48,553 bases of DNA from Pseudomonadota bacterium. GTDB lineage: Bacteria > Pseudomonadota > Gammaproteobacteria > Burkholderiales > Burkholderiaceae_C. This document shows positions 5,920 through 26,600 of the stretch, one piece after another (the first letter of the stretch is position 1; each line of letters starts with the position of its first letter). Location of the stretch: contig JABBOE010000004.1 in NCBI GenBank assembly GCA_019351955.1, positions 1 through 48,553 of the forward strand. Reading direction: 5' to 3'. Both the position numbers and the translations under genes were made by a program. The notes under the pieces were generated by a model. It saw only the letters and a list, made by a program, of their open reading frames with translations. It searched no databases and was not told the origin of the DNA.

Positions 5920-5995
5920 GGACGGCCTGGGGACGGAACGAAAGCCACCATTCTAGGAAGCCGTGGGGCGACGGCCCCGGGGTTTCGTCGCGGGC

Positions 5996-6024: not shown

Positions 6025-6336
6025 GGAATCCACCTAAGGAGGAGGGTGGAGGAGACAAGGGGTGTTGATCAACAACAATCAACGTGAGCAAATCATAAAC
6101 GATCTTCCTGCTGCGACGCAAAACCCTGTGGCGAGCTCAGGTATTTCAGAGAATCAGTATAGACTTATATGTAAAACATCGATAGAACAACAACTTACAG
6201 AAAACTTGGCATCGTTCCTGGGCCGACCTTCCCCTGTTGCCAAGCCGATTGCCACGCGCGAGCGAAGGGGATTGTTGCGCTGCAACAACATGGCCCGCTC
6301 CGCACACCATCAGCGAATAGGGAGACTTGATTCATC
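6025..6336. other. AT-rich intergenic region, divergent ilvA and osmC promoters
   Basis: No gene is seen. The stretch from about 6140 to 6215 is clearly more AT-rich than its surroundings and is the likely promoter region for both genes. On the minus strand a TTGTTG / TATAAG pair with an 18-bp spacer could drive ilvA. On the plus strand TTTCAG followed by TATATG with a 16-bp spacer could drive osmC. Both are weak matches. GTTGATCAAC at 6063-6072 is a 10-bp palindrome in the ilvA leader. Confidence 0.4.
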
Positions 6337-6774: not shown

Positions 6775-6792
6775 TCGTTCGTGGCAGGCGTC

Positions 6793-7659: not shown

Positions 7660-7727
7660 CATCACTGGTCGTGAGCCCATGGCCTCCACAACGCGCATTC
7701 CGATCGGCTTCATCCTTGGAGACATTT

Positions 7728-11479: not shown

Positions 11480-11564
11480 GGGGCGGTTGCTTCGAATTGG
11501 CTTAATCACGTCCTGTTGCCGTGGTTCGAGCCGCAGGCTGATTTCAAAAGAAGAGAGTCAGGAT

Positions 11565-12396: not shown

Positions 12397-12737
12397 TGAA
12401 CACGCGCATGCAGGTGCGGCTGTGGCTGTGGCAGCGCATCAGTGCCGCAATGCTGGCGCCGCTGGTGCTGATCCACCTGGTCACCATCATCTACGCGGTA
12501 CACGCGGGCCTGAGCGCGGCCGCTATCCTCGCACGCTTGCACGAGAACATGTGGTTCGGCGGCTTCTACGCCCTGTTCGTGCTGGCTTGCGCAGCGCACG
12601 TGCCCGTCGGCGTGGCCCGAATCGCCGAGGAATGGTTGGCGTGGCGCGGCGCGAAGGCCATGGTGTTGGGCGGAGCCTTCGGCCTGCTGGTGCTGGTGGC
12701 AGGGCTGCGCGCAGTCTACGGTGTGGTGCTGTCATGA
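12396..12737 (+). CDS. sdhC: Succinate dehydrogenase/fumarate reductase membrane anchor, first subunit
   Basis: A 113-residue hydrophobic protein with about three membrane helices: AAMLAPLVLIHLVTIIYAVH near residues 12-31, FGGFYALFVLACAAHVPVGV, and a C-terminal AFGLLVLVAGLRAVYGVVLS. The histidines in IHLVTIIYAVH and CAAHVPVG are candidate haem b ligands by analogy with SdhC. The ATG overlaps the sdhB stop (TGATG). Its own stop overlaps the next start. It anchors the catalytic subunits and forms part of the quinone site by family role. Assignment as C or D is by order only. Confidence 0.75.
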   Translation: MNTRMQVRLWLWQRISAAMLAPLVLIHLVTIIYAVHAGLSAAAILARLHENMWFGGFYALFVLACAAHVPVGVARIAEEWLAWRGAKAMVLGGAFGLLVLVAGLRAVYGVVLS

Positions 12738-13090
12738 AACGGCGCAACGATTTTCGGGCCCGCAACCACCCGGCGTACTGGGCCTTCTGGTTGCACCGGG
12801 TCTCGGGCTTGCTGTTGGCCTTGTTTCTGCCGCTGCATTTCTGGGCCCTGGGCCAGGCGCTGCAGGGCGCGGCGGCGCTGCAGGGCTTCCTCAGCTTCGC
12901 CGACCAGCCGTTATTCCGTTTCGCCGAATGGGGTCTGGTGATGCTACTGGCGCTGCACATGACCGGCGGTATCCGCTTGTTGCTCATCGAGTTTGCCCCT
13001 TGGTCCGGCCTGCGCCAGGACTTGATCGCGGTGGCGCTGGGCGCGGCGGCTGCCGTGGGTGTGGCTTTCGCGCTGGCACTGCTCGGCTGA
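12734..13090 (+). CDS. sdhD: Succinate dehydrogenase/fumarate reductase membrane anchor, second subunit
   Basis: A 118-residue membrane protein with WAFWLHRVSGLLLALFLPLH, which resembles the HRxSG motif of SdhC/D near the quinone pocket. LMLLALHMTGGIRLLLIEF-like sequence follows, with a second candidate haem His, and then a third helix. ATGA overlap with the preceding gene shows translational coupling. Together with the 113-residue subunit it would form the four-subunit complex. The C/D names follow order and are not certain. Confidence 0.78.
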   Translation: MKRRNDFRARNHPAYWAFWLHRVSGLLLALFLPLHFWALGQALQGAAALQGFLSFADQPLFRFAEWGLVMLLALHMTGGIRLLLIEFAPWSGLRQDLIAVALGAAAAVGVAFALALLG

Positions 13091-13121
13091 GCGCGTCGGG
13101 CCGACATTGAAGGACTCCCGC

Positions 13122-13997
13122 ATGAAGATCGACCTAAAGGCCATCGAGGACACGGCGCGCGAGCTTTACATACGCGCTCTCAAGGTGTTGCCGCCTGACA
13201 TCAAACAGGGTTTTGACCAACTCGTCAGAAACGAAAGCGTGCCGCGAGCGCAAGGCGTGCTCAGGACCATGATGACGAACATCGAGGTCGCTGAGCGCAC
13301 CGACAACTTGTTGTGCCAGGACACAGGAGTGCCGATTTACAACTTGCGCATCGGCAGCGGCGTTGAGGTCGATGGTCATGCGTTGAAGGCAGCAATCCGA
13401 CGCGGCTGCGAGCGGGCCACGCGGGAATATCCATTGCGTTCGTCGGTGGTGCATCCACTGACACGCCGCAACGAGCACACCTCCTGTGGCATCGAGGTTC
13501 CCGTGATCCACATCGATTTTGTCGAGACGACGGACTTTCTGGACATCGAGATGATCCCCAAGGGGAGCGGGTCGGAAAACAACTCATTTCTGAAAATGGC
13601 GATCCCCGCTGAGGGCATCGATGCCATCAAGACCTTTGTCGTGGACTGTGTCGTTGCCGCCGGTGGCAAGACATGCCCACCGACTATCGTTGGCGTCGGC
13701 CTCGGCGGCACGTCGGATCTGTGCGTTGCGCTGGCCAAGCGCGCTGCCACCCGGCCGCTGGGCACCCGTTGCGATGACCCCGACGGTGCCCTCCTCGAGG
13801 ATGAGCTGTCGCAGGCGGTCAACCAGCTCGGGGTTGGTCCGCAGGGACTCGGGGGCGACTCCACCGCCTTTGCCGTGCATATCGAACTGGCGGCCACGCA
13901 CATCACGATGAACCCCATTGCCGTGAACATGCAGTGCCATTCCGCACGCCGGGCCCGAGCCAGCTTCACCCCGACCGGCATTCACTACGGATTCTGA
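13122..13997 (+). CDS. Class I fumarate hydratase alpha subunit (TtdA-like)
   Basis: A 291-residue subunit of an oxygen-sensitive [4Fe-4S] hydro-lyase. NLLCQDTGVPIYNL, RNEHTSCGIEVPV and VAAGGKTCPPTIVGVGLGGT supply the conserved cysteines that bind the cluster. The fold covers the N-terminal half of single-chain fumarases such as FumA. Two-subunit members include fumarase and L(+)-tartrate dehydratase (TtdAB), and sequence alone does not separate them here. Placement inside a succinate/fumarate oxidoreductase operon favours fumarase, malate to fumarate. The ATG at 13122 follows AAGGA. The beta subunit begins 2 bp after the stop. Confidence 0.85.
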   Translation: MKIDLKAIEDTARELYIRALKVLPPDIKQGFDQLVRNESVPRAQGVLRTMMTNIEVAERTDNLLCQDTGVPIYNLRIGSGVEVDGHALKAAIRRGCERATREYPLRSSVVHPLTRRNEHTSCGIEVPVIHIDFVETTDFLDIEMIPKGSGSENNSFLKMAIPAEGIDAIKTFVVDCVVAAGGKTCPPTIVGVGLGGTSDLCVALAKRAATRPLGTRCDDPDGALLEDELSQAVNQLGVGPQGLGGDSTAFAVHIELAATHITMNPIAVNMQCHSARRARASFTPTGIHYGF

Positions 13998-13999
13998 TC

Positions 14000-14614
14000 A
14001 TGGCCCATCACGAACTGAACACCCCGGTCACCGAGGCGCAGGTGCGAGAACTGCACGCCGGCGATACGGTGACCCTGCAGTCCACATTGTTCGGCATTCG
14101 CGATGCGACCCAGATCCACATGTTCGACCGGGGGCGCACGACCCGCTTCGATCTGCGCGGGCATGCCGTGATCCACACCGCACCGAACGTGCGCCGGGTT
14201 ACGGCGAGTCCGGAGTTCCCGGCGGGCTACGCCCCGGTGTGCATTGGCACGACGACATCGGACCGCATGGAACGCTTTACCTGGCCGCTGATGCAGCAGT
14301 ACGGCGTGCGCATGATCGTCGGCAAAGGCGGGCTCCGCGCCGACTCGCTCGAGGCCTTCGCCAAACTCGGTGGCGTGTATCTGGCCATCGTCGGCGGCAC
14401 AGCGGCTCTGGAGAGCACCTGGATCGAGCAGATCGAGGATGTTGACCTCGACGACCTGAACCCGGAATCGTTGTGGAAATTCCGCATCCGCGATTTCGGG
14501 CCACTGCTCGTGGCGATGGACAGTCATGGCAACAGCCTGTACGAAGACGTGAGGCATGACGTGCAGGAGCGCCGCACTCGCGTGCTGGCGGGGCTTGGCG
14601 TGAGAACGGCATAA
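14000..14614 (+). CDS. Class I fumarate hydratase beta subunit (TtdB-like)
   Basis: A 204-residue protein equivalent to the C-terminal domain of class I fumarases. LHAGDTVTLQSTLFGIRDAT and MIVGKGGLRADSLEAF are family signatures, the KGG loop being part of the active site. It pairs with the alpha subunit, which begins the same transcript segment, and the two genes are 2 bp apart. As for the alpha subunit, tartrate dehydratase is the main alternative. No tartrate transporter or ttdR-like gene lies beside it, which slightly favours fumarase. Confidence 0.85.
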   Translation: MAHHELNTPVTEAQVRELHAGDTVTLQSTLFGIRDATQIHMFDRGRTTRFDLRGHAVIHTAPNVRRVTASPEFPAGYAPVCIGTTTSDRMERFTWPLMQQYGVRMIVGKGGLRADSLEAFAKLGGVYLAIVGGTAALESTWIEQIEDVDLDDLNPESLWKFRIRDFGPLLVAMDSHGNSLYEDVRHDVQERRTRVLAGLGVRTA

Positions 14615-14627
14615 GGCCAGCTGGCAC

Positions 14628-16379
14628 ATGAACTTGAAGCACATCGACACCGATATCCTGATCCTCGGCTCGGGCGGCGCCGGGCTGTTCGCAGCCCTGC
14701 ACGCGCACCAAGCCGACCCCCGACTGTCGATCACGATCGCGGTCAAGGGCCTGCTGGGCAAGTGTGGCTGCACCCGCATGGTGCAGGGCGGGTACAACGT
14801 TGCGCTCGCCGAGGGCGACTCGGTCGAGCGGCACTTCATGGACACGATCGAGGGAGGCAAGTGGCTGTCCAACCAGGATCTGGCCTGGACGCTGGTGACG
14901 AAGGCCGTGGAGCGGATCCACGAGCTTGAAAACGAACTCGGCTGCTTTTTCGATCGCAACCCGGACGGCACCGTGCACCAGAAGGCCTTTGCTGGGCAGA
15001 CCTTCGACCGCACGGTGCACAAGGGCGACCTGACCGGGATCGAGATCATCAATCGCCTGGCAGAGCAGGTCTGGGCACGCGGCATCGACCGGCTTGAGGA
15101 GCACCGTGCCATCGAACTTGTGCGCACGCCGGACGGCAACGCGCTGGCTGGCGTGCTGATGATCGATATGCGCAACGGTGAGTTCGTGTTTGTGCGCGCC
15201 GGCGCGGTGCTGCTGGCAACTGGCGGCGGGCCGACCATGTACAAATTCAACACGCCGTCGGGTGACAAGAGCTGCGACGGTCTGGCCATGGCGCTACGCG
15301 CCGGGTTGGCGCTGCGCGACATGGAAATGGTGCAATTTCACCCCACCGGGTTGTTGGCTGGCGTGCATACACGCATGACCGGAACCGTGCTTGAAGAGGG
15401 CTTGCGGGGTGCGGGTGGGTGGCTGCTCAACGGCCACGGTGAGCGGTTCATGCAGACCTACGACGCGCGTGGCGAACGCGCCACGCGCGACATCGTGTCG
15501 CGCGGCATCTTCGCCGAGATGCGCGCCGGGCGTACCTCACCCAACGGCGGCGTGTACATCCAGATGGCCCACCTCGGCGCGGACAAGGTCCGGCACCAGT
15601 TCAAGGGCATGGTCGAGCGCTGTGCCGACTGCGGGTTCGATTTGGCCGGCGGCAAGGTTGAGGTCGTGCCTACCGCGCACTACATGATGGGTGGCGTGGT
15701 GTTCCGCCAGGACTGCACCACCGAACTGCACGGTCTCTTTGCTGCCGGCGAGGACACGGGCGGGGTGCACGGTGCCAACCGCCTGGGCGGCAACGGCGTG
15801 GCCAACTCGACAGTCTTCGGCGGCATTGCAGGCGAAGCCATGGCGCTGTGGGTGCGGGGTAACCCGGGCCGCCGCGAGCCGGATCTGGAGGCGATCCAGC
15901 GCACCATCGACGAGCACGAGGCCCCGTTTAGCCACAAGCCAGGTGACCTCAATGCGATTCGCGAGGCGCTATATGAGTGCATGTGGGAAGACGTCGGCAT
16001 CCTCCGCGACGCGAACGGACTGGCGCGGGCCCAGGCGCGGCTGGTAGCACTGCAAGGGGAACTGGCCGCGGTCGGCGTGGCTGACGGCGAGCGAGCGTAC
16101 AACCTGAGCTGGCATGACTGGCTGAACCTGCGCAACCTCATCGCGGTCAGCCGCGTGATTGCTGCGGCGGCAGCCAGCCGAGAGAATTCGCGCGGGGCGC
16201 ACTTTCGCGAGGACTTTCCGGATGCTGGCGAGCTTCTCTCGTCGACCTACAGCAACGTGCGCCAGGATGGCGGGCGAGTTGTCGTGTCGCACGACCCCGT
16301 GGTGTTCTCCCGCGTCCAACCCGGGCGGACCATCCTCGTTGAGATCGGCGCGGTGCAGGCGAAGCTTGCCACGCTGTGA
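14628..16379 (+). CDS. sdhA: Succinate dehydrogenase/fumarate reductase flavoprotein, covalent-FAD His replaced
   Basis: A 583-residue flavoprotein with an N-terminal FAD dinucleotide fold (ILILGSGGAGLFAALHA, residues 10-26). Active-site motifs are MEMVQFHPTG, LRGAGGWLLN, HYMMGG and HGANRLGGN, so the dicarboxylate site looks intact. The segment that in SdhA reads S-H-T-x-x-A-Q-G-G reads G-C-T-R-M-V-Q-G-G here, residues 47-55. Cys48 therefore replaces the His that is normally bonded to the FAD 8-alpha carbon. Known family members without that bond keep fumarate reduction but lose most succinate oxidation, so fumarate reductase activity is favoured (inference). It is the last gene of the operon, 13 bp after the fumarase beta subunit. 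Confidence 0.88.
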   Translation: MNLKHIDTDILILGSGGAGLFAALHAHQADPRLSITIAVKGLLGKCGCTRMVQGGYNVALAEGDSVERHFMDTIEGGKWLSNQDLAWTLVTKAVERIHELENELGCFFDRNPDGTVHQKAFAGQTFDRTVHKGDLTGIEIINRLAEQVWARGIDRLEEHRAIELVRTPDGNALAGVLMIDMRNGEFVFVRAGAVLLATGGGPTMYKFNTPSGDKSCDGLAMALRAGLALRDMEMVQFHPTGLLAGVHTRMTGTVLEEGLRGAGGWLLNGHGERFMQTYDARGERATRDIVSRGIFAEMRAGRTSPNGGVYIQMAHLGADKVRHQFKGMVERCADCGFDLAGGKVEVVPTAHYMMGGVVFRQDCTTELHGLFAAGEDTGGVHGANRLGGNGVANSTVFGGIAGEAMALWVRGNPGRREPDLEAIQRTIDEHEAPFSHKPGDLNAIREALYECMWEDVGILRDANGLARAQARLVALQGELAAVGVADGERAYNLSWHDWLNLRNLIAVSRVIAAAAASRENSRGAHFREDFPDAGELLSSTYSNVRQDGGRVVVSHDPVVFSRVQPGRTILVEIGAVQAKLATL

Positions 16380-16587: not shown

Positions 16588-17337
16588 CTAGAGGTTATGC
16601 CAGATCAGGCTCGTGCCGGAGGCGATCAGGATCGCCCACACCGCCTGCACGATCCGATGTGCCGGCAGCTTGCGGTTCAGGTGGCTGCCCAGGTACAGAC
16701 CAGCCATCATGACCGGTAGCAGCACGAGCGCAAGTTGCAGCACATGCGGCTGCCTGTATAGCCCCACGGAGGTGAAAAGAACGAGTCGCGCCAGGCCGCT
16801 GAAGAAAATCAGGGCGCTGATGGTTGCGCGCAGCATGCGCGCATCGGGCAGCCGGCGCGCCAGGTAGGCAACGTAGATGGGCCCGCCGGTCCCGAACAGC
16901 GCCGTGAACAATCCCCCCAGCAAGGCCAATGGTGCTGCCCACGCCACCGAAATGGGCCGCCGCTGCGCCCGGAATGCCAGGCTCCATGTCGCGTAGGCCA
17001 GAATGAAGCAGCCCAGTGTGATGAGCAGCGGCCTTTGCGGCGCGCGCACGAGAAGGGTAACTCCGATCAGCATGCCAGCGACCATGAACGGAATGATGCG
17101 CAGCAACTCGTCGCGCGCCACGGCGCTGTGGTTGCGCAGTCCCAGCACGATGCCGGCGCCGAGGTCGAAGATCAACATCATCGGCACCACCGATCGCAGC
17201 GGCAGAAAATGCGTCAGCAGCGGGACGGCGGTGATTGACGAGCCGAAGCCGGTGAGGCCATAGATGGTGTAGGCCAGCGCGATGATCAGGGTCGCGCTGA
17301 GCAGCGTAACCCACGGAAACGGCAAATCGATCATCAT
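16588..17337 (-). CDS. TauE/SafE family permease, probable sulfite exporter
   Basis: A 249-residue protein with about eight hydrophobic segments. An inverted two-fold pattern is typical of the family: ALAYTIYGLTGFGSSITAVP in the first half and GGLFTALFGTGGPIYVAYLA in the second. TauE/SafE proteins export sulfite, sulfoacetate or related anions. It is the last gene of the minus-strand run containing suyAB, whose product includes sulfite, so sulfite export is the natural role (inference). The ATG at 17337 (a second ATG follows at once) places the first helix correctly, though no clear ribosome binding site is present. The gap to the preceding gene is 100 bp. Confidence 0.82.
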   Translation of the reverse strand: MMIDLPFPWVTLLSATLIIALAYTIYGLTGFGSSITAVPLLTHFLPLRSVVPMMLIFDLGAGIVLGLRNHSAVARDELLRIIPFMVAGMLIGVTLLVRAPQRPLLITLGCFILAYATWSLAFRAQRRPISVAWAAPLALLGGLFTALFGTGGPIYVAYLARRLPDARMLRATISALIFFSGLARLVLFTSVGLYRQPHVLQLALVLLPVMMAGLYLGSHLNRKLPAHRIVQAVWAILIASGTSLIWHNL

Positions 17338-17437
17338 GTGCGCGCTGACGTGGGCGGCATGCCGCGCGTGGCTGGGCCCTTGCTGCTGCGCCGCCGGGGC
17401 ATGGGCTTTCGCCTTGCGGGCAAGATTCGTTGTTGTT

Positions 17438-18442
17438 TCACCCGTGTGCCAACGCCTGCAGCTGCTCGTACAGGGGCACTCCAACCTCAATACCGTCCGC
17501 GTGGGCTTTCTGAGACAGGTCGAAGCGGCGCTGTCCGGGGAGACGGACCTCGGGGTCCTGACACATCGCTGCGACCAGCGTTTCCAGTCGCTCATCGAAC
17601 ACGTCGCTGCCGGCGAGCGCAGCTGGATCGATAACCATAAAGGCTTGGCCGATACGTGGGCGATTGCCCGCGTCCGTGAAGAATGAATCGGCCTCGAAGC
17701 CAAACGACGCACCTGTAAGCGCACAGCACAGGAGCTCGACAATCAGCGCGAGCATGGCTCCCTTGACCCCTCCTGCCGGAAGCATGGAACCTTCGAGACC
17801 AGCTTTGGGGTCGGTCGTCGGTCGACCTTCTGGGTCCACTGCCCAGCCCAGCGGAATGCTGCGCCCCTCCTTGGCCGCCACCATCAGTTTGCCCCGAGCA
17901 ACCTCGGACAGTGACAGGTCGATGGCTAACGGCGGCGCCTTACGGCGGGGAAACACAGCCGCGATCGGGTTGGTGCCGAACAGCGCACGTTTGCCACCCC
18001 ATGCAGGCATCGCTGCGGGTGAGTTGCCAAAAGCCAGGCCGACCATGCCGGCGCTGCTGACTGGGCTCAGGTGCTCAACGGCGACGCCAAAATGGTGGCT
18101 GCGCGTGACCCCAGCGAAAGCCGTGCCGCAGGCCCGTGCGCGTGCAATGGCCTCGCGCACGGCGAGCGCGCAGGCGGGAAATGCCAGGCCATCGTCGGCG
18201 TCGACAAGGCAGGCGGCGCCTTTGGCATGGATCACCTTCGGCACAGCGTCGCCATTGACGCGACCGTTGCGCAGGTGCGCGGTGTACTGTGCCACGCGCG
18301 ATAGACCGTGCGACGGCAGCCCCTGGGACTCCGCGGCAACCAGTGCCTGGGCGGTGGACTGAGCCATGAGCGAGGAGGCCCCGGCCCGGCGCAATGCAGT
18401 GGCAACGAGATCAGTCAGAGCAGACAACGCGACATGAGGCAT
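17438..18442 (-). CDS. comC: Malate/L-lactate/sulfolactate dehydrogenase family (Ldh2), ComC-like
   Basis: A 334-residue NAD(P)-dependent dehydrogenase of the Ldh2/MDH2 family, which is unrelated to classical Rossmann lactate dehydrogenases. Motifs are AAESQGLPSHGLSRV, VTRSHHFGVAVEHL, GTNPIAAVFPR and GGVKGAMLALIVELL. The family includes (R)-sulfolactate dehydrogenase (ComC), alongside malate, ureidoglycolate and lactate enzymes. Next to slcC- and suyAB-like genes the best reading is reversible oxidation of (R)-sulfolactate to sulfopyruvate. The ATG at 18442 gives the usual N-terminus. A GTG at 18472 overlaps the stop of the upstream gene (GTGA) and is an alternative. Specificity is inferred from context. 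Confidence 0.75.
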   Translation of the reverse strand: MPHVALSALTDLVATALRRAGASSLMAQSTAQALVAAESQGLPSHGLSRVAQYTAHLRNGRVNGDAVPKVIHAKGAACLVDADDGLAFPACALAVREAIARARACGTAFAGVTRSHHFGVAVEHLSPVSSAGMVGLAFGNSPAAMPAWGGKRALFGTNPIAAVFPRRKAPPLAIDLSLSEVARGKLMVAAKEGRSIPLGWAVDPEGRPTTDPKAGLEGSMLPAGGVKGAMLALIVELLCCALTGASFGFEADSFFTDAGNRPRIGQAFMVIDPAALAGSDVFDERLETLVAAMCQDPEVRLPGQRRFDLSQKAHADGIEVGVPLYEQLQALAHG

Positions 18443-18468
18443 GGGTGGAGGTTTGAGATGACGGACGA

Positions 18469-19404
18469 TCACGTGCCGAGGGCATGCAGGAAGTCGCCGA
18501 CCTTTTCGGCGATCATGGTGCTGACGCGGGCGTTGGATTCGCACGTGACACCTGCCACGTGCGGGGTGAGAATCAAGTTGGGAAGGTTGGCCAGTGGCGA
18601 GCCTGCCGCCAGCGGCTCGTGCTCGAACACGTCGAGGGCGGCGCCCGCGAGTTCGCCACGGCGCAGTGCTGTCGCGAGCGCCTCTTCGTCAATCACGCCG
18701 CCGCGCGCGGAGTTCACCAGCACCGCCCCGGAGTGCAACAGCGCCAGCTTTCCGGCATCGATCAGGTGGCGTGTCTGAGGGGTCAGCGGAATGTGCAGAC
18801 TGACGACGTCGGATTCGGCAAGCAATGCGTCGAGTTCGCGGGGCGTCGCGCCAGTCTGCGCCCACATCGGGGAATGGAGGTCGACCATCGGGTCGTGAGC
18901 CAGTACACGCATGCCCAGCGCAACGCCCAGGCGCCCCGTGCAGCGCCCGATGTCGCCGAAACCAACCAGACCCAGGGTCTTGCCGGCGATTTCGCGTCCT
19001 TCGGACAGGCGCGCGCGCGGCCAGGCGCCGGAGGCCACCTCGGCGCTGGACAAATAGGCGCCGCGCAGAAGCAGCATTGCCATCGCGATCACGTATTCGG
19101 CCACCGCCTGCGCATTGGCACCGGAGGCGGGAATGACGTGGATATCGCGCGCCGCACAGGCCGTCAGATCGATGTTGTCCAGACCGACGCCGAGCCGGCC
19201 GACCACGCGCAACTGCGGCGCTGCCGCCAGCAATTCGGCATCGACCTGAGTGCGGTTGCGTACGATCAAAGCATCGGCCGAGTGTACGCGCGCCCGCAGC
19301 GCGGCGGGCGCGTCGACAAGTAGCGGCTCGTAGGTGACATCGAAGCGGCTGCGTAGCTTCGCAACCGCTTGCTGATCCATGAATTCGCTGACGACGATTC
19401 TCAT
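18469..19404 (-). CDS. slcC: D-isomer-specific 2-hydroxyacid dehydrogenase, (S)-sulfolactate dehydrogenase-like
   Basis: A 311-residue NAD-dependent dehydrogenase. The nucleotide fold is in TLGLVGFGDIGRCTGRLGVA (residues about 141-160). The catalytic triad fits Arg in LVNSARGGVIDE, Glu in DVFEHEPL and His in LTPHVAGVT. The fold is shared with phosphoglycerate dehydrogenase. Its position beside comC- and suyAB-like genes matches SlcC, which oxidises (S)-sulfolactate to sulfopyruvate. Together the two dehydrogenases convert the S to the R enantiomer. The substrate is inferred from the neighbours; the family is certain. Confidence 0.78.
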   Translation of the reverse strand: MRIVVSEFMDQQAVAKLRSRFDVTYEPLLVDAPAALRARVHSADALIVRNRTQVDAELLAAAPQLRVVGRLGVGLDNIDLTACAARDIHVIPASGANAQAVAEYVIAMAMLLLRGAYLSSAEVASGAWPRARLSEGREIAGKTLGLVGFGDIGRCTGRLGVALGMRVLAHDPMVDLHSPMWAQTGATPRELDALLAESDVVSLHIPLTPQTRHLIDAGKLALLHSGAVLVNSARGGVIDEEALATALRRGELAGAALDVFEHEPLAAGSPLANLPNLILTPHVAGVTCESNARVSTMIAEKVGDFLHALGT

Positions 19405-19449
19405 CTGGCTTGCTTCCTGGTCAGGACAGGGCCAACGGTTGCGCGCTGT

Positions 19450-20328
19450 TCATGCCTGCATGCCCCACTTGCGTACCGTGTGGCGCTCGATGGTGCGGAA
19501 AATCAGGTTTTCGACGATCAATCCGATGATGATGATGGCCAGAAGCCCGGCGAACACTTTCGAGATTTCCAGCAGGTTCTTGCTTTCGTAGATATACCAG
19601 CCCAAGCCGCCTGAACCCGAACTGACGCCAAACACCAGCTCGGAGGCGATCAGCGTGCGCCAAGCAAAGGCCCAGCCGACTTTGAGCCCCGTGAGGATGC
19701 TTGGAAACGCTGCCGGAATCAGGATTTTCACGATGTACGGAAGCCCCCTCAGGCCGTAATTGCGCCCGACCATGCGCAGCGTATTGGACACCGACAGAAA
19801 ACCCGATTGCGTATTCAGCGACACCGCCCAAACCACCGAGTGCACCAGCACGAAAATCAAACTGCCGTCTCCAAGGCCGAACCAAATCAGCGCGATCGGC
19901 AGCAGAGCTATGGCGGGTAATGGGTTGAACATCGCCGTCAGGGTTTCAAGTAAATCGGCGCCGACACGCGTGGCCACGCCGAATGCTGTCAGCACGGCGG
20001 CCAGTGCGACACCGAGTGCATAGCCGGTCAGCAGAACCTTGAGGGAGACCCAGATCTTGATCAGCAGCTCGCCGCTGATGATGCCTTTCACGAAGGTGGT
20101 CATGGTCGACCAGAACGTCGGGAACAGCAGACTGTTGTTGATCAGGCGCGCACCGATTTCCCATGCGATGGCCAGCAGGATGATGATGACTGTCTTGCGC
20201 AACGCGGCGTTGTTGTAGCAGGTCTCGAACCGCGACAGAGGCTTTTCGACGACACCGAAGCTCGTCGAATCGATGGGCTCCCGATAGATCTCGGGGCGCG
20301 GCAGTTGCAAGCTGTCGCTATCAGGCAT
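19450..20328 (-). CDS. ABC transporter permease, nitrate/sulfonate/taurine (SsuC/TauC) type
   Basis: A 292-residue inner-membrane protein with about six helices and a cytoplasmic N-terminal tail of roughly 45 residues. The EAA-like loop (RNYGLRGLPYIVKILIPAAF) docks the ATPase. ALIWFGLGDGSLIFVLVHSV and ASELVFGVSSGSGGLGWYIY are typical of the SsuC/TauC/NrtB branch. The start overlaps the end of the ATPase gene by 8 bp, and the stop is 45 bp before slcC. It probably forms a homodimer that imports the sulfonate bound by the protein encoded at 21199-22203. Confidence 0.9.
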   Translation of the reverse strand: MPDSDSLQLPRPEIYREPIDSTSFGVVEKPLSRFETCYNNAALRKTVIIILLAIAWEIGARLINNSLLFPTFWSTMTTFVKGIISGELLIKIWVSLKVLLTGYALGVALAAVLTAFGVATRVGADLLETLTAMFNPLPAIALLPIALIWFGLGDGSLIFVLVHSVVWAVSLNTQSGFLSVSNTLRMVGRNYGLRGLPYIVKILIPAAFPSILTGLKVGWAFAWRTLIASELVFGVSSGSGGLGWYIYESKNLLEISKVFAGLLAIIIIGLIVENLIFRTIERHTVRKWGMQA

Positions 20329-21124
20329 GCTGGACCCCCTGGTTCATGTTCTCGCCTGCGAAGAGCAGGTCGTTGATCTTCGCTTCGAGCTGGATTGCTT
20401 CCTCACGGTCGGTACTGTCGCGCGAGCGACCCTCGAGTTCGGCGCGGACTTGGCCCGGGTGTGGGGATAGCAGCAGGATACGGTTGCCCAGTTTGATCGC
20501 CTCGGGAATCGAGTGGGTCACGAAAATGACTGTGAAATGGGTGTCGTCCCACAGCTGCAGGAGTTCGTCCTGCATCTTGCGCCGGGTCAGCGCATCGAGC
20601 GCGGCGTAGGGCTCATCCATCAGCAGCACGTCGGGTTCCATTGCCATGCCGCGGGCGATGGCAACGCGCTGTTTCATGCCCCCGGACAGCATATGGGGAT
20701 AGTGGTTGGCGAACTGCATCAGGCCAACCTTCCCCAGGTAGTAGTCAGCCTTGTCTTCGGCCGCTCGTCCCTTCCATTTTCCAGATGACAGCAGCGGGAA
20801 CATGACGTTTTGCTTGACAGTCTTCCAAGGCAGGAGTTGATCAAACTCCTGGAAGACCATCATGCGGTCGTAGCCCGGCTTGGAGACCGCCACACCCTTC
20901 AGCATGATCTCCCCCTCCGAGGGTGTGAGAAACCCCCCGATGGCCTTGAGCAGGGTCGATTTGCCGCAGCCAGATGGGCCCAGCAGGATGTAGCGGTCGG
21001 ATTTGCAAACCTGGAAATCGACCCGATAGGTCGCTGTGACCAGATGGTTCGGGGTCTTGTACTGCAGTGTCACCCCGTGCACGTCCAGGAGGACCTGCGG
21101 GTTCGGACGCGTCGATGGATTCAT
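20321..21124 (-). CDS. ABC transporter ATP-binding protein, nitrate/sulfonate/taurine (SsuB/TauB) type
   Basis: A 267-residue ATPase. Walker A is GPSGCGKST at residues 49-57, the signature is LSGGMKQRVA, Walker B is VLLMDEP, and the H-loop is VTHSIPEA. The SsuB/TauB-like features FQEFDQLLPWKTVKQNV and DEPYAALDALTR are present. It powers the importer formed with the adjacent permease and binding protein. It lies 74 bp after the binding protein gene and overlaps the permease start. Confidence 0.92.
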   Translation of the reverse strand: MNPSTRPNPQVLLDVHGVTLQYKTPNHLVTATYRVDFQVCKSDRYILLGPSGCGKSTLLKAIGGFLTPSEGEIMLKGVAVSKPGYDRMMVFQEFDQLLPWKTVKQNVMFPLLSSGKWKGRAAEDKADYYLGKVGLMQFANHYPHMLSGGMKQRVAIARGMAMEPDVLLMDEPYAALDALTRRKMQDELLQLWDDTHFTVIFVTHSIPEAIKLGNRILLLSPHPGQVRAELEGRSRDSTDREEAIQLEAKINDLLFAGENMNQGVQHA

Positions 21125-21198
21125 GTGGTTACACAGGTTCCTACAGCACTGGCACTGGAGCCTTCATCAGGCGAAGGAAGCGCGAAGTCGACTGCGGC

Positions 21199-22203
21199 TC
21201 AGCTGCCTGGAAGGTTGTCGACATTCGGGAAGAAAAGATCCTTCCACGACTTCGGCACCGTCTTGATGGTTCCGACTTTGCGCATGAAGCGGACGTATTT
21301 CATGACGTGCTCGGGCGTCGTCGTGTAGACAACCTGCGGATCCTGCAGCATTTTGAGGATGTCATCGACCTTGTCCTTTTTGTCGTTGGTCATCTTCAGG
21401 TACAGCCCGGCAGCCCATTTCTTGTCATGGTTGATGTCCCCAATTGCCTGGTCGAGGGCAGCCACGAATGCGGCATAAATCTTCGGATTCTCCCGGTAGA
21501 ACTTACTCGTGGTCCAGACCAGATTGAAGGACGCGGGGCCACCCAGCACGGTGTACGAATCGAGGACCGTGTGCACACCGGGCATCTTGAGTTCCTGGTA
21601 CTGGAACGGCGGGGCGCCGAAGTGCGCAGTCACAGCCCCGCTGGCCAGGGCAGCCATCGCGTCGGGGTGGCTCATCGACACTGTCAGCGCGTCAAGCTTG
21701 TGTTCCTGGCCCGGTCCGAATGCCTGCTCGGCCGCCATTTCGAGCGTCACGGCCTGAATTGAGACCTTGACCGCCGGCAACGCAATCTTGTCTTTGCTTG
21801 TGAAATCCTTGATGGTCTTCACATTCGGATCGGAGGTGTTCAGGTACAGCGGCATCGCATTGAGCGCGGCCACGCCCTTGATGCCGTAGTTATTGCGGGT
21901 GCGCGCCCAGGCAATGACCATCGGTGCGACGCCACCGGACGCGAACTGCAAACTGCCGGACAGAAGCGCCTCGTTCATCACGTTGCCGCCGGCGAACTTG
22001 ATCCAGGAGACTTTCAGGTCCTTGATGCCACGCGTTGCGGCCTGTTTTTCGAGCAGGTTCTGGTCCTGCATCACCATCAGGGGCAAATAGCTGATTCCAT
22101 ATTCGCGTGCAACGGCAATCTCCTTCACCTCGGCGCTGGCTGTGGCAGAAGTGCCCAGCAAGACGCCGGCTAGCAGGGTGGCTCCGATCAGATGCTTCTT
22201 CAT
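21199..22203 (-). CDS. ABC transporter substrate-binding protein, SsuA/NMT1-like
   Basis: A 334-residue periplasmic binding protein with a signal peptide of about 24 residues (MKKHLIGATLLAGVLLGTSA...ASA|E). The mature part has VAREYGISYLPLMVMQDQNL and LLSGSLQFASGGVAPMVIAW, characteristic of the SsuA/TauA/NMT1 fold that binds sulfonates, taurine, nitrate or pyrimidine precursors. Next to suyAB the ligand is probably 3-sulfolactate or a precursor (inference). Most described sulfolactate operons use TRAP or TTT uptake systems, so an ABC importer would be a variation. The ATG at 22203 is preceded by GAGGAG-like sequence. Confidence 0.87.
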   Translation of the reverse strand: MKKHLIGATLLAGVLLGTSATASAEVKEIAVAREYGISYLPLMVMQDQNLLEKQAATRGIKDLKVSWIKFAGGNVMNEALLSGSLQFASGGVAPMVIAWARTRNNYGIKGVAALNAMPLYLNTSDPNVKTIKDFTSKDKIALPAVKVSIQAVTLEMAAEQAFGPGQEHKLDALTVSMSHPDAMAALASGAVTAHFGAPPFQYQELKMPGVHTVLDSYTVLGGPASFNLVWTTSKFYRENPKIYAAFVAALDQAIGDINHDKKWAAGLYLKMTNDKKDKVDDILKMLQDPQVVYTTTPEHVMKYVRFMRKVGTIKTVPKSWKDLFFPNVDNLPGS

Positions 22204-22372
22204 GGTGTCTCCTCATGAGTGTCAGGCGATGATGGTGGGCGATGTGGGCATCGCTCCGCGTTGTGCGCCCTCACAGCTTTGTGCTGCAGGCGCTGGTCAA
22301 ACCCCGACGCGATGGCCACAGACCAGCGCCGGGCAAAACCCTAGCGACTGCCAGAGTCAATCGTGGACGCGC

Positions 22373-23548
22373 TCATGCGCTTTCGTACAGTCTTGTCAAC
22401 ACGAATTCGCGGTGACCCAGCGCTTCGGCCGCCGTCAGGCGTCCATTCGCGGTGCGCACCAGGCACTCAAGCGCCTTGTCGCCAGCCTGGTCGAGGTTGA
22501 TCTCGCGTTGCAGCAACCCCGAGACATCAACGTCGATATGTTCATGCATGAGGCGCACTGTGCGTGGGTTGGCGCACAGCTTGATCACAGGAAGGATCGG
22601 ATTGCCGATCACATTGCCTTGGCCTGTCGGGAAAAAATGCGCCACGTAGCCCGAGGCGGCGCAAAGCGTGACCATCTCGGCGGCGGCCGAGGATGAGTCC
22701 ATGAACCACAACCCGGGATGTGTCGGGACTTCGGCTTTGTCGATGACTCCGTCAACGCGGCATTTCTTGCCGATCTTCTGAATATTGCCAAGCGCCTTTT
22801 CCTCGATCGTCGTCAGCCCGCCGGCGATATTTCCCTTCGTCGGTTGGCTTTCTGAAAGATCGGTTGTCTTATGTCGGTTGATCATGTCCTGATACCGATC
22901 GAACATGAACATGAAGCGCTCGCGCACTGCATCGGTGGCGCAGCGCGCAGCCACGATGCTCTCGCCGCCCGTGATTTCGGATGTCTCGCCAAACACCAAA
23001 GTGTTGCCCAACTCGTAAAGCTTGTCGAAGGCGTTGCCCACAGTGGGATTGGCGCCGCATCCCGAGGTGGTATCGCTCTCGCCACATTTGGTCGAAACCC
23101 ACAGTTCACTCAATGGGCAGCGTTCCCGCTGCTTTTCCGTGGCCCACTGCACATACTCGCGGGCGGCCTGGCTGGCACGCTTGATGGTGTCGTGATCCCC
23201 ATGCCCCTCGATGCCGAAACCTGTCACAGGCTTGCCCGTCGCGGCGATGCCGTCGACGACCTTTTTCGTCCAGCCGTCCTCGATGCCGATGACCACCACG
23301 GCCGCGACGTTTGGGTTGCATCCTGTGCCGATCAGTGTGCGGAAATGGAGATCGAGGTCGGCCCCGAACTGCAAACGGCCGTATGGGTGGGGAATCGCCA
23401 TCGTGCCTTTGATGTTGTGCGCCACTGCCTCCGCAGCTGCATTGGATAGGTCGTCCAAGGGTAGGATGATGACGTGGTTGCGCACACCCACCCGGCCATT
23501 TTCGCGGCGGTAGCCCAGGATGGTGGTGTCTTTGGAAATAGTTGGCAT
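22373..23548 (-). CDS. suyB: (2R)-sulfolactate sulfo-lyase large subunit SuyB
   Basis: A 391-residue member of the UxaA/galactarate dehydratase family, normal length for SuyB. Motifs are [69 protein letters not shown] and [20 protein letters not shown]. SuyAB, an iron-dependent cytoplasmic lyase, splits (R)-3-sulfolactate into pyruvate and sulfite. The split into a large chain and a separate 93-residue SAF-domain chain matches SuyAB. The ATG at 23548 follows GAGGAAG. suyA lies 134 bp upstream. An altronate or other sugar-acid dehydratase is the alternative, but the dehydrogenases and exporter nearby fit sulfolactate better. Confidence 0.85.
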
Positions 23549-23682
23549 GTTGCTTCCTCTAAGGCTGGTCAGAAGTTCGGGGAACATCGAAAAGGATTGG
23601 CGGCACGTGCCGACTGAAGCGCCATCGCATGGACGCGTTGTCGGTGTTCAAGTCGGCTCGCCATGACCCACACGGCCGCTGC

Positions 23683-23964
23683 TTACCAGCGCTTCGTCTT
23701 GATGTTTTGAACATGCGCGTGCTCGCCGACATGGATCGGGGAAACAACCTTGCCGATGTCGACGGCGTACTTCCATACGGTGTCGCCCGTGGCCATGTCC
23801 TTGAGTGCGATTTTGTGGCCAATGGGAATGTCTTGTGTAGCCTTGACGCTGGTCATGCGGTCTTCATCCATGATCCAGCCATTGAGCTCCATGCCTGCCT
23901 TGACACCTTCAACGACGACGACGGCAACGGAGTCCTTGGAATCGTGCAGTACGAAGTGAATCAT
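23683..23964 (-). CDS. suyA: (2R)-sulfolactate sulfo-lyase small subunit SuyA
   Basis: A 93-residue SAF-domain protein with VVVVEGVKAGMELNGWIMDE, DIPIGHKIALKDMATGDTV, and a C-terminus GEHAHVQNIKTKRW. This corresponds to the N-terminal domain of UxaA and to SuyA, the small subunit of sulfolactate sulfo-lyase. The ATG at 23964 has AAGGAG 7 bp upstream and was preferred over distal in-frame starts that add unrelated sequence. It is the first gene of the minus-strand operon. A strong inverted repeat at 24037-24059 lies in its promoter region, shared with the divergent gntR-type gene. Confidence 0.85.
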   Translation of the reverse strand: MIHFVLHDSKDSVAVVVVEGVKAGMELNGWIMDEDRMTSVKATQDIPIGHKIALKDMATGDTVWKYAVDIGKVVSPIHVGEHAHVQNIKTKRW

Positions 23965-24036
23965 TCTGTCTCCTTGGTATGTATATCTGTTCCGGGGCTT
24001 TTGTCCGCACGGGCAGATGCAAGAATACGGATGCAT

Positions 24037-24066
24037 GTCATCTAAGTCAACTAGATGACCTAGATG
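24037..24066. promoter_or_regulatory. Candidate GntR-family operator between suyA and the regulator
   Basis: GTCATCTA-AGTCAAC-TAGATGAC is a perfect 8-bp inverted repeat with a 7-bp spacer. It is followed 1 bp later by a third half-site, TAGATG. Weaker outer symmetry (AATAC on the left, GTATT on the right) extends it. It sits between divergent suyA and the HutC-type regulator and overlaps the expected -35 region of the regulator (TAAAAT at 24077-24082 is a candidate -10). Repression of both genes by the regulator is the likely arrangement. Confidence 0.6.
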
Positions 24067-24146
24067 TATTCCCGAGTAAAATAAGAGCAAATGTTTCGGG
24101 CTTTGGCGCCCGGTTTCTTCCACTGAGTACAAGCCAACGAGCAGCA

Positions 24147-24899
24147 ATGACGGACGCAATTTCAACGGAGATGTCTCTGGGGACGCATCTGTACAAAGAG
24201 GTGAAGCACAAGATCACTGAGTCTTTGCGTACAGGTGAATGGAAGCCGGGCGACGTCATTCCCTCGGAAAAGAGGCTCAGCGAGCGATTTGCGGTGAGCA
24301 TCGGAACGGTGCGCAAGGCCGTGGATGAGCTCACAGCGGAGAACATGCTGATCCGGCACCAAGGGCGCGGCACCTTTGTTGCTTCGCACGGTCGAGGGCG
24401 ATACTTCTTTTCCTTCTTCCATATCGTGCGCCAGGATGGGCATCGAGAATTCCCCACCGTCGAACTCGTTGAATTCGAGAAACGTTACGCTGACGCGAAA
24501 ACAGCTGCTGCCCTGAGCATTGGGGTGGGCGACAAAGTTCTTTGTTTCACCAACAGGCTTAGCTTGCAGGGCGATCCAGTCATCCTGGATCAAATTGTCG
24601 TGCCAGCTACGCTGTTTAAGACGCTGACCGAGCGTACGCTGCGCGAGCGTCGCACCACGATTTACCAGCTTTATCAGGAGCAGGCCGGCATCAGCGTGAT
24701 TCGAACCGCAGACCGTGTTCGCGCGACCAAGGCCGATTCCGGCAAGGCCCGATTGTTGGGGGTGCCAGCCGGGCACCCGCTTCTGTTGGTGGTGCGTGTG
24801 GCGCACTCGTTCAAAGACAAGCCGGTCGAGTTGCGTCACTCCTACGTCAATACCGACCGTTACGAATACGCTGTCGATCTGGTGGGCGATGAGCTCTAA
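24147..24899 (+). CDS. GntR-family transcriptional regulator, HutC/UTRA type
   Basis: A 250-residue regulator. The N-terminal winged helix-turn-helix is at about residues 12-80 (YKEVKHKITESLRTGEWKPG, PSEKRLSERFAVSIGTVRKA, GRGTFVASHGRGRYFF). The C-terminal UTRA ligand domain contains LCFTNRLSLQGDPVILDQIV and HPLLLVVRVAHSFKDKPVEL. It is divergent from suyA across 182 bp that carry a palindromic site, so it probably controls the sulfolactate operon and itself in response to a substrate or intermediate. The ATG at 24147 was chosen to start just before the DNA-binding domain; the ribosome binding site is weak. Confidence 0.9.
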   Translation: MTDAISTEMSLGTHLYKEVKHKITESLRTGEWKPGDVIPSEKRLSERFAVSIGTVRKAVDELTAENMLIRHQGRGTFVASHGRGRYFFSFFHIVRQDGHREFPTVELVEFEKRYADAKTAAALSIGVGDKVLCFTNRLSLQGDPVILDQIVVPATLFKTLTERTLRERRTTIYQLYQEQAGISVIRTADRVRATKADSGKARLLGVPAGHPLLLVVRVAHSFKDKPVELRHSYVNTDRYEYAVDLVGDEL

Positions 24900-24989: not shown

Positions 24990-26600
24990 GTGCATTCGTT
25001 CAGCTTCAGTACAACTTATCCGTCGATCCGGCAGCCGGTGTTCGCGCGCAATGTAGTTGCGACTTCACAGCCTCTGGCTGCGCAGGCTGGGTTGCGCATG
25101 TTGCAGGCAGGTGGCAACGCAGTGGATGCCGCGATTGCCACCGCAGCGGCCTTGACAGTCGTCGAGCCCGTGAGTAACGGACTTGGATCGGACGCGTTTT
25201 GCTTGATCTGGGACGGGCGTCGACTGCACGGACTGAACGCTTCGGGCTGCGCGCCGGAAGCGTGGACGCCCGAGTATTTCGAGCATAAATACGGAGCGGG
25301 CCCTCGCCTGCCGAAGCGTGGCTGGGATTCCGTGACCGTGCCGGGCGCAGTTGCCGGCTGGGCGGCGTTGTCACAGCGTTTTGGCAGATTGCCGTTTGCC
25401 GACCTGATGCAGCCGGCGATCGGTTACGCCCGTGACGGCTTCGCCGTGTCGGTGATCGCGCAAAAGCGCTGGGCTGGGTCGATCGCGGAGCTCAATGCGC
25501 AGCCTGGCTTTGCAGAAGCTTTCATGCCCGGAGGGTGCGTCCCACAGGCTGGCCAAACATGGCGGTTTCCGGCCGCAGCGCGGGCCTTGCAAGCCATTGG
25601 TGCGAGCCGTGGGGAGGCGTTTTATCGGGGGGAGATTGCAGGGGCCTTGGTGCGACACGCTGCAGCGAATGGTGGTGCCATGAGCCGCGCCGATCTGGAA
25701 AGCTATCGCCCGGACTGGGTCGAGCCGATTTGCCGGGTGTTTCAAGGCCATGTCGTGCATGAACTGCCACCCAATGGGCAGGGCGTGGCCGCGCTGATGG
25801 CCATCTCCATACTCGAGCATCGGGGAATCGAGCGCTTTGCACCGGATTCCCCGATAGCCCAGCATTTGCAGATTGAAGCCATGAAGCTCGCGTTCGCCGA
25901 CGTTTATCGTTATGTTGGCTCGGAACAGGCCATGCAGGTACGCACCTCAGATTTGATCGACGACGACTACCTGCGCAAGCGAGCTGAGCTCATTGACGAA
26001 CGGCGTGCGCAGGACTTTGGGCCCGGCAATCCGGCCCGGGGTGGAACGGTATATCTGGCCACGGGCGATGCCGACGGGATGATGGTCAGCTTCATTCAGA
26101 GCAATTTCATGGGATTTGGCTCCGGGGTCGTTGAGCCGGAATGGGGAATTTCTCTACAAAACCGTGGCCACGCCTTCTCGCTGCAGCCGGGGCCCAATAT
26201 CGTTGCACCGGGCAAGCGCCCGTTCCACACAATCATCCCGGGTTTCGTCACGAAGGGGGGGCGGGCGGCGATGGCCTTCGGCGTGATGGGTGCCAACATG
26301 CAGCCGCAAGGCCATGTCCAAACCCTAGCCCGCATTTTGGCCTGGGGTCAGAACCCGCAGGCTGCATGTGATGCGCCGCGCTGGCGTATCGTGGACGGCC
26401 TAAACGTCGAGGTCGAAGCCACAATGTCGCCCGAGCTCGTGCAGGGGCTGGCCGGACTGGGCCACCGCATCAAGATTGTGGCCGATAGCTACCAAGACTT
26501 TGGCTCTGGCCAGTTTATCTGGAACCTTGGCGACCCCAGGGCTAGGGGCTACATCGCCGCCAGCGACTGGCGGCGTGATGGCCAAGCAGCGGGCTATTGA
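24990..26600 (+). CDS. Gamma-glutamyltransferase family protein (YwrD-like)
   Basis: A 536-residue N-terminal-nucleophile hydrolase. The proposed autoprocessing and catalytic Thr is Thr353 in RGGTVYLATGDADGMMVS, aligned with the Thr391 region of E. coli Ggt. The pocket motif VSNGLGSDAF is the form seen in the YwrD-like branch rather than classical Ggt. LPPNGQGVAALMA and GVMGANMQPQGHVQ are conserved. No signal peptide is visible, so it is probably cytoplasmic. It starts with GTG after GAGGGG and lies 90 bp after the regulator on the same strand. Its substrate is unknown. It may release a sulfonate or amine from a gamma-glutamyl or other amide before the suy pathway (speculative). Confidence 0.85.
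   Translation: MHSFSFSTTYPSIRQPVFARNVVATSQPLAAQAGLRMLQAGGNAVDAAIATAAALTVVEPVSNGLGSDAFCLIWDGRRLHGLNASGCAPEAWTPEYFEHKYGAGPRLPKRGWDSVTVPGAVAGWAALSQRFGRLPFADLMQPAIGYARDGFAVSVIAQKRWAGSIAELNAQPGFAEAFMPGGCVPQAGQTWRFPAAARALQAIGASRGEAFYRGEIAGALVRHAAANGGAMSRADLESYRPDWVEPICRVFQGHVVHELPPNGQGVAALMAISILEHRGIERFAPDSPIAQHLQIEAMKLAFADVYRYVGSEQAMQVRTSDLIDDDYLRKRAELIDERRAQDFGPGNPARGGTVYLATGDADGMMVSFIQSNFMGFGSGVVEPEWGISLQNRGHAFSLQPGPNIVAPGKRPFHTIIPGFVTKGGRAAMAFGVMGANMQPQGHVQTLARILAWGQNPQAACDAPRWRIVDGLNVEVEATMSPELVQGLAGLGHRIKIVADSYQDFGSGQFIWNLGDPRARGYIAASDWRRDGQAAGY

Follow-up and report, generated by a model that had tools for sequence, protein, structure and literature searches.

We analysed a stretch of 48,553 nucleotides from a Pseudomonadota bacterium of the Burkholderiaceae_C (contig JABBOE010000004.1 of assembly GCA_019351955.1, positions 1 to 48,553 of the forward strand), here denoted the window. 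Two operons face each other within it. The minus-strand operon carries genes for predicted sulfolactate breakdown. The plus-strand operon, sdhB-sdhC-sdhD-fumA-fumB-sdhA at 11674-16379, encodes relatives of succinate dehydrogenase and fumarase and is separated from the first by 208 bases. We propose that the two operons act together in the breakdown of the sulfonate 3-sulfopropanoate. An initial annotation of this DNA, made from the sequence alone, had named the eight minus-strand genes, and all eight are found in the order it gave. Its interval ended at 24899; the operon itself stands, but that position is the end of a divergent plus-strand GntR/UTRA regulator gene which it did not list. The plus-strand operon was absent from it.

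Genes of the two facing operons

The sulfolactate operon (minus strand) comprises the following genes, those of the importer being of the ATP-binding cassette (ABC) type:
16588-17334, minus strand: tauE, TauE/SafE-family permease, proposed sulfite exporter (clears Pfam TauE with 104.6 bits, cut-off 32.6)
17438-18442, minus strand: comC-like Ldh2-family dehydrogenase (Pfam Ldh_2; top NCBIfam model L-sulfolactate dehydrogenase)
18469-19404, minus strand: slcC-like D-2-hydroxyacid dehydrogenase (Pfam 2-Hacid_dh_C)
19450-20328, minus strand: ABC permease (Pfam BPD_transp_1)
20321-21124, minus strand: ABC ATPase (Pfam ABC_tran; top NCBIfam model taurine ABC ATPase, under cut-off)
21199-22203, minus strand: ABC substrate-binding protein, SsuA/TauA-like (TIGR01728 SsuA family, 65.2 bits, under the cut-off of 163.5)
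22373-23548, minus strand: suyB, predicted (R)-sulfolactate sulfo-lyase large subunit (identity to Cupriavidus and SuyB clade)
23683-23964, minus strand: suyA, predicted small subunit, a 93-amino-acid open reading frame (ORF) directly upstream of suyB (position; weak match to the galactarate dehydratase N-terminus)

The facing operon (plus strand) comprises:
11674-12396, plus strand: sdhB-like iron-sulfur subunit (Pfam Fer2_3; NCBIfam dhsB TIGR00384, 192.9 bits, cut-off 88)
12396-12737, plus strand: sdhC-like membrane subunit (Pfam Sdh_cyt, 28.1 bits, cut-off 25.8)
12734-13090, plus strand: sdhD-like membrane subunit, its start overlapping the end of sdhC (Pfam Sdh_cyt, 47.5 bits, cut-off 25.8)
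13122-13997, plus strand: fumA-like alpha subunit of a class I (Fe-S) hydratase, proposed sulfoacrylate hydratase alpha (Pfam Fumerase; relative of 7xky chain A)
14000-14614, plus strand: fumB-like beta subunit of the hydratase (Pfam Fumerase_C; relative of the solved 7xky chain B)
14628-16379, plus strand: sdhA-like flavoprotein, proposed quinone-linked 3-sulfopropanoate dehydrogenase (NCBIfam TfrA/SdhA models, under cut-off)

The SuyB of the window is 84% identical to its homologue in the hps-suy cluster of Cupriavidus pinatubonensis (locus L003). A tree of 29 rows separated 22 SuyB-side rows, including those of the window, Cupriavidus, Paracoccus and Methylobacterium, from seven outgroup rows (Escherichia coli UxaA and GarD and five further UxaA-family rows) with support of 100/100, several of the outgroup branches being long. 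Three alignment columns hold Cys in 5/7 outgroup rows, UxaA and GarD among them, and in 0/22 SuyB rows; a fourth Cys column (C155 in the window) is common to the SuyB rows and the outgroup. According to the part of PMC6336799 available to us, SuyB lacks Cys residues that UxaA and GarD conserve. The tree and the Cys pattern rule out an altronate or galactarate dehydratase, the alternative to SuyB that the initial annotation had singled out for a phylogeny, and from the clade membership of SuyB we predict that SuyAB is an (R)-sulfolactate sulfo-lyase. The suyA ORF gave no Pfam match at E <= 0.001. In annotated SuyB loci elsewhere, suyB is likewise adjoined by a short UxaA-family ORF.

The two dehydrogenases belong to the families previously assigned to them. 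Their names are less firm: NCBIfam NF040650, the top-scoring model for the ComC-like protein, gives 211 of the 500 bits of its cut-off, and the SlcC-like protein is 58-63% identical to homologues of the suy loci L006, L008, L010 and L011. The names ComC and SlcC are thus provisional and follow synteny, the latter being taken from the position of the gene beside suyAB and comC. It is nevertheless well founded to describe these genes as a module made up of a sulfolactate lyase, two dehydrogenases and a permease of the TauE family, and the parts match a known arrangement. As far as the available part of PMC12421959 describes it, SuyAB occurs in Chromohalobacter and Paracoccus with SlcC/ComC and an exporter; the window has counterparts of each, namely SuyA, SuyB, two dehydrogenase-like proteins and a permease of the TauE family, but joins to them a fumarase-like hydratase and an Sdh-like complex, and its importer is TauA/SsuA-like. 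The sulfolactate operon holds no sulfite dehydrogenase gene, as had been noted before. A SorA-like sulfite dehydrogenase is encoded elsewhere in the host genome (G000, C140:5291-6487), its 538 bits falling below the cut-off of 600.

The host genome carries a second suyAB at 73-6708 of contig C205 (locus L112), whose SuyB is 85% identical to that of the window. This locus is of the 2,3-dihydroxypropane-1-sulfonate (DHPS) type. It contains suyA, suyB, a major facilitator superfamily carrier, a histidinol-dehydrogenase-family protein (HpsN-like), a short-chain dehydrogenase/reductase (HpsO-like) and a zinc alcohol dehydrogenase (HpsP-like), the Hps names being given by resemblance to L003 with NCBIfam matches at the family level only; its divergent GntR gene is split into two ORFs. 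According to the available part of PMC11382572, the hpsRNOUP-suyAB cluster of C. pinatubonensis makes sulfolactate from DHPS by HpsNOP. The L112 locus is similar to that cluster and the neighbours of suyAB in L003 match it, whereas the window has the sdh-fum genes instead and no hps genes were seen beside its two operons. The host thus appears to own one suyAB for DHPS and another tied to sdh-fum, and since a second copy exists in L112, sulfolactate cleavage is probably provided for already.

Both hydratase subunits clear their Pfam cut-offs (alpha, Fumerase, 293.6 against 25 bits; beta, Fumerase_C, 105.8 against 22.2). The alpha subunit also clears NCBIfam PRK06246 and TIGR00722, and the beta subunit lies narrowly under TIGR00723 (140.5 against 145.15). 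Among 65 family-invariant positions of the alpha subunit, 55 are the same in a solved archaeal fumarase; 42 of the 83 family-invariant positions of the beta subunit differ from the solved chain, four of these falling in a gap or outside the compared stretch. The flavoprotein reaches no SdhA/FrdA cut-off, its best NCBIfam scores being 507.2 of 718 bits (PRK06263) and 432.4 of 567.3 (TIGR01812). The host encodes a housekeeping SdhA on contig C113 (TIGR01816, 894.4 against a cut-off of 727.35), which is 34% identical to the window flavoprotein, a FumC on C38 (over cut-off) and another class I fumarase on C78. These copies rule out sdh-fum as the only tricarboxylic acid (TCA) cycle enzymes of the host and mark the window genes as an extra set.

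Co-occurrence of sdh-fum with sulfolactate breakdown

We collected loci around the best 80 of at least 590 SdhA-like relatives in named genome contigs, 70-82% identical to the window protein, and scored neighbouring genes by identity thresholds of our own setting; 40 of these loci have full flanks of 10 kb on each side. A homologue of suyA, suyB, slcC or comC is present in 55 of the 80 loci and in 32 of the 40 with full flanks, 29 of which hold suyA or suyB. Overall, comC was found in 44/80 and slcC in 24/80. Three loci (L020, L029 and L041, the last from Thiomonas sp. FB-6) repeat the order and orientation of the 16 window genes from lysR to gntR, so that the grouping is no chance one. Elsewhere the same genes recur rearranged in order and orientation, and this speaks for a functional tie. 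The run sdhB-C-D-fumA-fumB-sdhA also recurs identically on plasmids of Methylobacterium radiotolerans and M. oryzae, near suyAB and slcC-like and comC-like genes, and the M. oryzae locus continues with a SorA sulfite dehydrogenase (685 bits, cut-off 600) and with a gene whose annotation reads putative sulfate exporter.

Co-occurrence was then counted by genome. An even draw of 399 genomes from the order was searched for SuyB (E <= 1e-130) and for SdhA-like proteins (E <= 1e-150 and at least 67% identity). SuyB was found in 71 genomes and the SdhA-like protein in 51; 50 hold both, one the SdhA-like protein only, 21 SuyB only and 327 neither (Fisher p 1.8e-45, a value that overstates independence because of kinship). 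Counted by genus, all 25 genera with the SdhA-like protein lie within the 31 SuyB genera among 159 (hypergeometric p 7.7e-24). In 40 of the 51 genomes the SdhA-like and SuyB genes lie 2.0-18.5 kb apart on one contig; in one they are far apart on one contig and in nine they are on different contigs. In the single such genome without SuyB (G211), a 17 kb contig carries the module with a ComC-like match next to it. We hold it very probable that sdh-fum and sulfolactate breakdown belong together. The initial annotation had taken the eight minus-strand genes for a complete pathway; the set is very probably incomplete, the facing operon being part of the unit.

Among 393 genomes drawn from the whole phylum, 11 had the SdhA-like protein, 15 had SuyB and five had both, three of these five being also in the order draw. 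The six carriers without SuyB lie outside the class of the window and are probably Alphaproteobacteria. According to the available part of PMC11382572, sulfolactate is broken down by SuyAB or by ComDE and Xsc. Xsc exceeded its cut-off in 6/6 SuyB-less module genomes and in 0/14 controls. A full-length ComD match was present in all six, four over the cut-off and two just under it, and two of the 14 controls were over it. In one of the six (G444), comD (119428-119901 on contig C5) adjoins an hpsN homologue and the module. The presence of Xsc and ComD in these carriers suggests that the partner of the module is sulfolactate breakdown in general. At this locus of G444 (L132, 4079-6475), the hpsN homologue and a two-ORF thiamine pyrophosphate (TPP) pair, the first ORF of which is the ComD match, lie directly beside the Sdh-like module.

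The fumarase-like partner varies among more distant relatives. At L132-L140 and L143 the Sdh-like complex is paired with a different two-subunit fumarase, whose alpha subunit is 34-37% identical to that of the window. The differing fumarases of these loci suggest repeated recruitment of the hydratase.

Active-site remodelling, proposed route and rival explanations

We aligned 82 SdhA-like rows, namely 78 of the 80 loci (L077 and L082 were left out), the window, Methylobacterium L008 (twice, with different starts) and L013 of M. radiotolerans JCM 2831. H238, R287, H351 and R385 (window numbering), which we take to be the catalytic His/Arg set of the SdhA flavoprotein family, are invariant in 82/82 rows. 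A Glu at position 256 is equally invariant; the solved FrdA/SdhA chains and the host housekeeping SdhA have Thr there, presumably a substrate-site residue. A short insert with an invariant Arg249, adjacent to Glu256, is present in 82/82 rows, and Gly390 replaces in all of them the Ser of the housekeeping SdhA. Eleven further loci (of 12; L141 was left out) all carry the Glu, and L132 has Lys in place of the insert Arg. Among 35 flavoproteins, a tree separated 33 SdhA-like rows from host SdhA and NadB at 100/100, the branches of those two being very long. The flavoprotein fold is predicted from solved relatives. A change at one of the two carboxylate sites fits a substrate that pairs a single carboxylate with an acid group of another kind.

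These observations lead us to propose that the two facing operons form a single catabolic unit for 3-sulfopropanoate, a C3 sulfonate isosteric with succinate, and we assign this reading a probability of about 0.6. The TauABC/SsuABC-type ABC transporter would import 3-sulfopropanoate, and the Sdh-like membrane complex would remove two hydrogens from it, giving 3-sulfoacrylate, the fumarate analogue, while the electrons would go to the quinone pool. Hydration by the class I fumarase-like enzyme, with its two subunits, would then yield 3-sulfolactate, the malate analogue. If the usual fumarase geometry is followed, the product would be (R)-sulfolactate, the SuyAB substrate; by the naming rules, the label is (R) because CH2SO3- outranks carboxylate, which flips R/S relative to CH2COO-. 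Any (S)-form could be interconverted by the SlcC-like and ComC-like dehydrogenases via sulfopyruvate, the oxaloacetate analogue. Cleavage of (R)-sulfolactate by SuyAB would yield pyruvate and sulfite, the latter leaving the cell through the TauE-family protein. The unit shares its subunit set with TCA succinate dehydrogenase and fumarase, keeps the catalytic His/Arg residues and is predicted to perform the same chemistry on an isosteric substrate. It differs from them in the 34% identity of its flavoprotein to the housekeeping SdhA, in the Glu for Thr, in its scores below the SdhA cut-offs and in a gene run shared with sulfonate genes.

The importer had been assigned to sulfolactate, which is probably not its chief substrate. 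Its genes lie inside the sdh-fum run, between sdhD and fumA, at L053, L073 and L081, and just before fumA at L042. In eight module-less SuyB loci (L003, L004, L005, L007 and L009-L012), the stretches analysed showed no such binding protein. Both observations suggest an importer for the substrate of the Sdh-like enzyme. As a marker the binding protein is weak, occurring in 13 of the 399 genomes, nine of them with the SdhA-like protein.

The proposed substrate and steps have a counterpart in the literature. In the part of PMC11489063 available to us, a 2024 paper, 3-sulfopropanoate is formed by HpfXYZ of Enterococcus gilvus and is excreted by bacteria degrading sulfoquinovose, DHPS or homotaurine. 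The same text describes its degradation as otherwise unreported, the exception being a thesis on homotaurine catabolism in Roseovarius nubinhibens, reported to pass through 3-sulfopropionate, sulfoacrylate and sulfolactate, for which the paper names no genes. The substrate and the route from 3-sulfopropanoate through sulfoacrylate to sulfolactate are those proposed here. For Bilophila, the available part of PMC12890257 describes the mechanism as unclear. Our searches of the open literature, in which the Konstanz thesis was not included, turned up no paper that assigns these sdh-fum genes to a sulfonate. For the missing steps of 3-sulfopropanoate degradation, this locus and its counterparts in named species supply candidate genes. 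The evidence tilts modestly towards a wider form of the proposal, in which a quinone-linked 3-sulfopropanoate dehydrogenase and a 3-sulfoacrylate hydratase feed SuyAB in many Betaproteobacteria, or ComDE-Xsc in another class of the phylum, by a route without CoA esters, for example in the soil or freshwater dwellers Paraburkholderia and Polynucleobacter. If true, this would close the gap between the products of sulfoglycolysis and sulfite. It would also mean that two enzymes of the TCA cycle were duplicated and adapted to a sulfonate isostere, and that some genes annotated as succinate dehydrogenase or fumarate hydratase mark sulfonate metabolism.

Several observations count against the 3-sulfopropanoate proposal. 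The new Glu256 is acidic and offers no obvious help in sulfonate binding. Eight of the 40 full-flank loci lack suyA, suyB, slcC and comC within 10 kb, and in 10 of the 51 order genomes the SdhA-like and SuyB genes are far apart or on different contigs. Across the phylum, 6/11 genomes with the SdhA-like protein have no SuyB, and the Xsc/ComD comparison was made with 14 controls rather than a background of relatives. The more distant modules at L132-L140 and L143 combine the Sdh-like complex with another fumarase. A window-type importer with two or more genes is present in 18/80 loci, and four of the 13 genomes with the binding protein lack the SdhA-like protein. No gene forming 3-sulfopropanoate is prominent among the larger conserved neighbour families listed, which are partly annotated. 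Finally, the proposed route does not explain the TPP enzyme found in 23/80 loci or the sulfatase-family gene found in 10/80.

The substrate could instead be sulfosuccinate, a surfactant sulfonate, which the Sdh-like complex would convert to sulfofumarate and the hydratase to sulfomalate; the ComC/SlcC-like enzymes would yield sulfo-oxaloacetate, and loss of CO2 would give sulfopyruvate, to be reduced to sulfolactate for SuyAB. The Sdh-Fum pair and the frequent malate/lactate-type dehydrogenases (the comC and slcC counts given above) would both be accounted for, and a DctA-type C4-dicarboxylate carrier does adjoin suyB in Methylobacterium, with dctA homologues in 9/80 loci. DctA also lies beside suyAB in the module-less L004, however, and slcC and comC are both missing within 10 kb in 3 of the 28 suyB loci with full flanks, although copies could lie elsewhere. 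A sulfosuccinate route needs an extra oxidation and a decarboxylation, where 3-sulfopropanoate reaches sulfolactate directly, and it would lead one to expect both carboxylate sites of the dehydrogenase to be kept, whereas one is altered. We therefore regard sulfosuccinate as an unlikely substrate.

Quite improbable, in our judgement, is that the minus-strand genes form a self-contained operon for sulfolactate uptake, epimerisation and cleavage, with sdh-fum as a separate dicarboxylate neighbour, for example for pyruvate-derived C4 acids. In its favour, the sulfolactate genes taken by themselves correspond to a module already described, each operon of the window has a regulator of its own, and sites of the GntR type precede sdhB in few loci (2/59, see below). 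Such independence is hard to square with the 50/51 co-occurrence and the recurrent linkage in many orders, with the importer inside the sdh-fum run of some loci, with the existing housekeeping Sdh and fumarases and with the uniform active-site change. A reversed Sdh-like complex, in which sulfoacrylate made from sulfolactate would serve as a respiratory electron acceptor and 3-sulfopropanoate would be excreted, finds an echo in the top NCBIfam model of the flavoprotein, a fumarate reductase (TfrA). SuyAB and TauE in the unit point to breakdown, and the carriers include Paraburkholderia, Methylobacterium and Polynucleobacter, genera of aerobes; we hold a reductase to be very unlikely. The 3-sulfopropanoate proposal remains the reading we prefer.

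Some loci carry further genes. The TPP enzyme (L008, 7562-9187) is akin to 2-hydroxyacyl-CoA lyase and benzaldehyde lyase and at several of its 23 loci follows sdhA directly. The sulfatase-family gene always lies between sdhD and fumA (L054, L061, L063, L072, L074, L076, L079, L089, L091 and L093); its representative in L054, at 5823-7337, matches Pfam Sulfatase and SGSH_C. A TRAP-type carrier occurs in 11/80 loci. As a guess, some of these genes may belong to other entry points, such as homocysteate through 2-oxo-4-sulfobutyrate.

Regulators and neighbouring genes

Three regulatory features flank the operons:
10589-11509, minus strand: LysR-family regulator, divergent from sdhB (Pfam LysR_substrate, HTH_1; homologue in 28/80 loci)
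24039-24057, no strand assigned: palindrome CATCTA-N7-TAGATG between gntR and suyA, proposed GntR operator (0 in 100 window shuffles)
24147-24899, plus strand: GntR/UTRA-family regulator, divergent from suyA (Pfam GntR, UTRA; homologue in 28/80 loci)

We suggest that GntR acts at the palindrome before suyA and that LysR probably governs sdhB. A site of the same type lies upstream of the second suyAB (L112). Searching 90 loci (1.50 Mb) with the 19-base pattern and up to four mismatches gave 30 start positions, or 25 merged sites; 100 letter-shuffled patterns gave a mean of 1.22 start positions and at most 5. The perfect-palindrome version of the pattern found 9 only, against a mean of 1.22 for mirrored shuffles, one of 100 of which reached 14. 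Most of the merged sites (22/25) face a pathway gene within 450 bases, mostly suyA or gntR, the others being the binding-protein gene sbp (L018, L035, L057), slcC (L043), comC (L046) and sdhB (L075, L083). A site lies within 500 bases upstream in 13 of the 48 loci with a suyA match.

A weight matrix trained on the sites facing suyA or gntR was scored against null windows from the same loci, which therefore include real sites. At the 99% null level it detected a site in the upstream regions of suyA (23/40), slcC (6/25), sbp (4/19), comC (1/46), sdhB (2/59), lysR (1/28) and the TPP gene (1/24), and in none of those of fumA (0/66), sdhA (0/80) and dctA (0/9). At the 99.8% level suyA was the only gene left (10/40). 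In L075 and L083 gntR is divergent from sdhB. This pattern suggests GntR control of sdh-fum in these two loci only and not as a general feature.

Outside the two operons, a gamma-glutamyltranspeptidase gene (24990-26600) begins 90 bases past gntR on the same strand. Beside the LysR gene lie tandem porin-like genes at 7671-8915 and 9209-10327, whose products have nearly identical N-termini; the first matches Pfam Porin_4 and the second has a weak porin-model match. Further upstream, at 5995-6057, the window contains a match to the Rfam Betaproteobacteria toxic small RNA (66.8 bits, gathering threshold 50).

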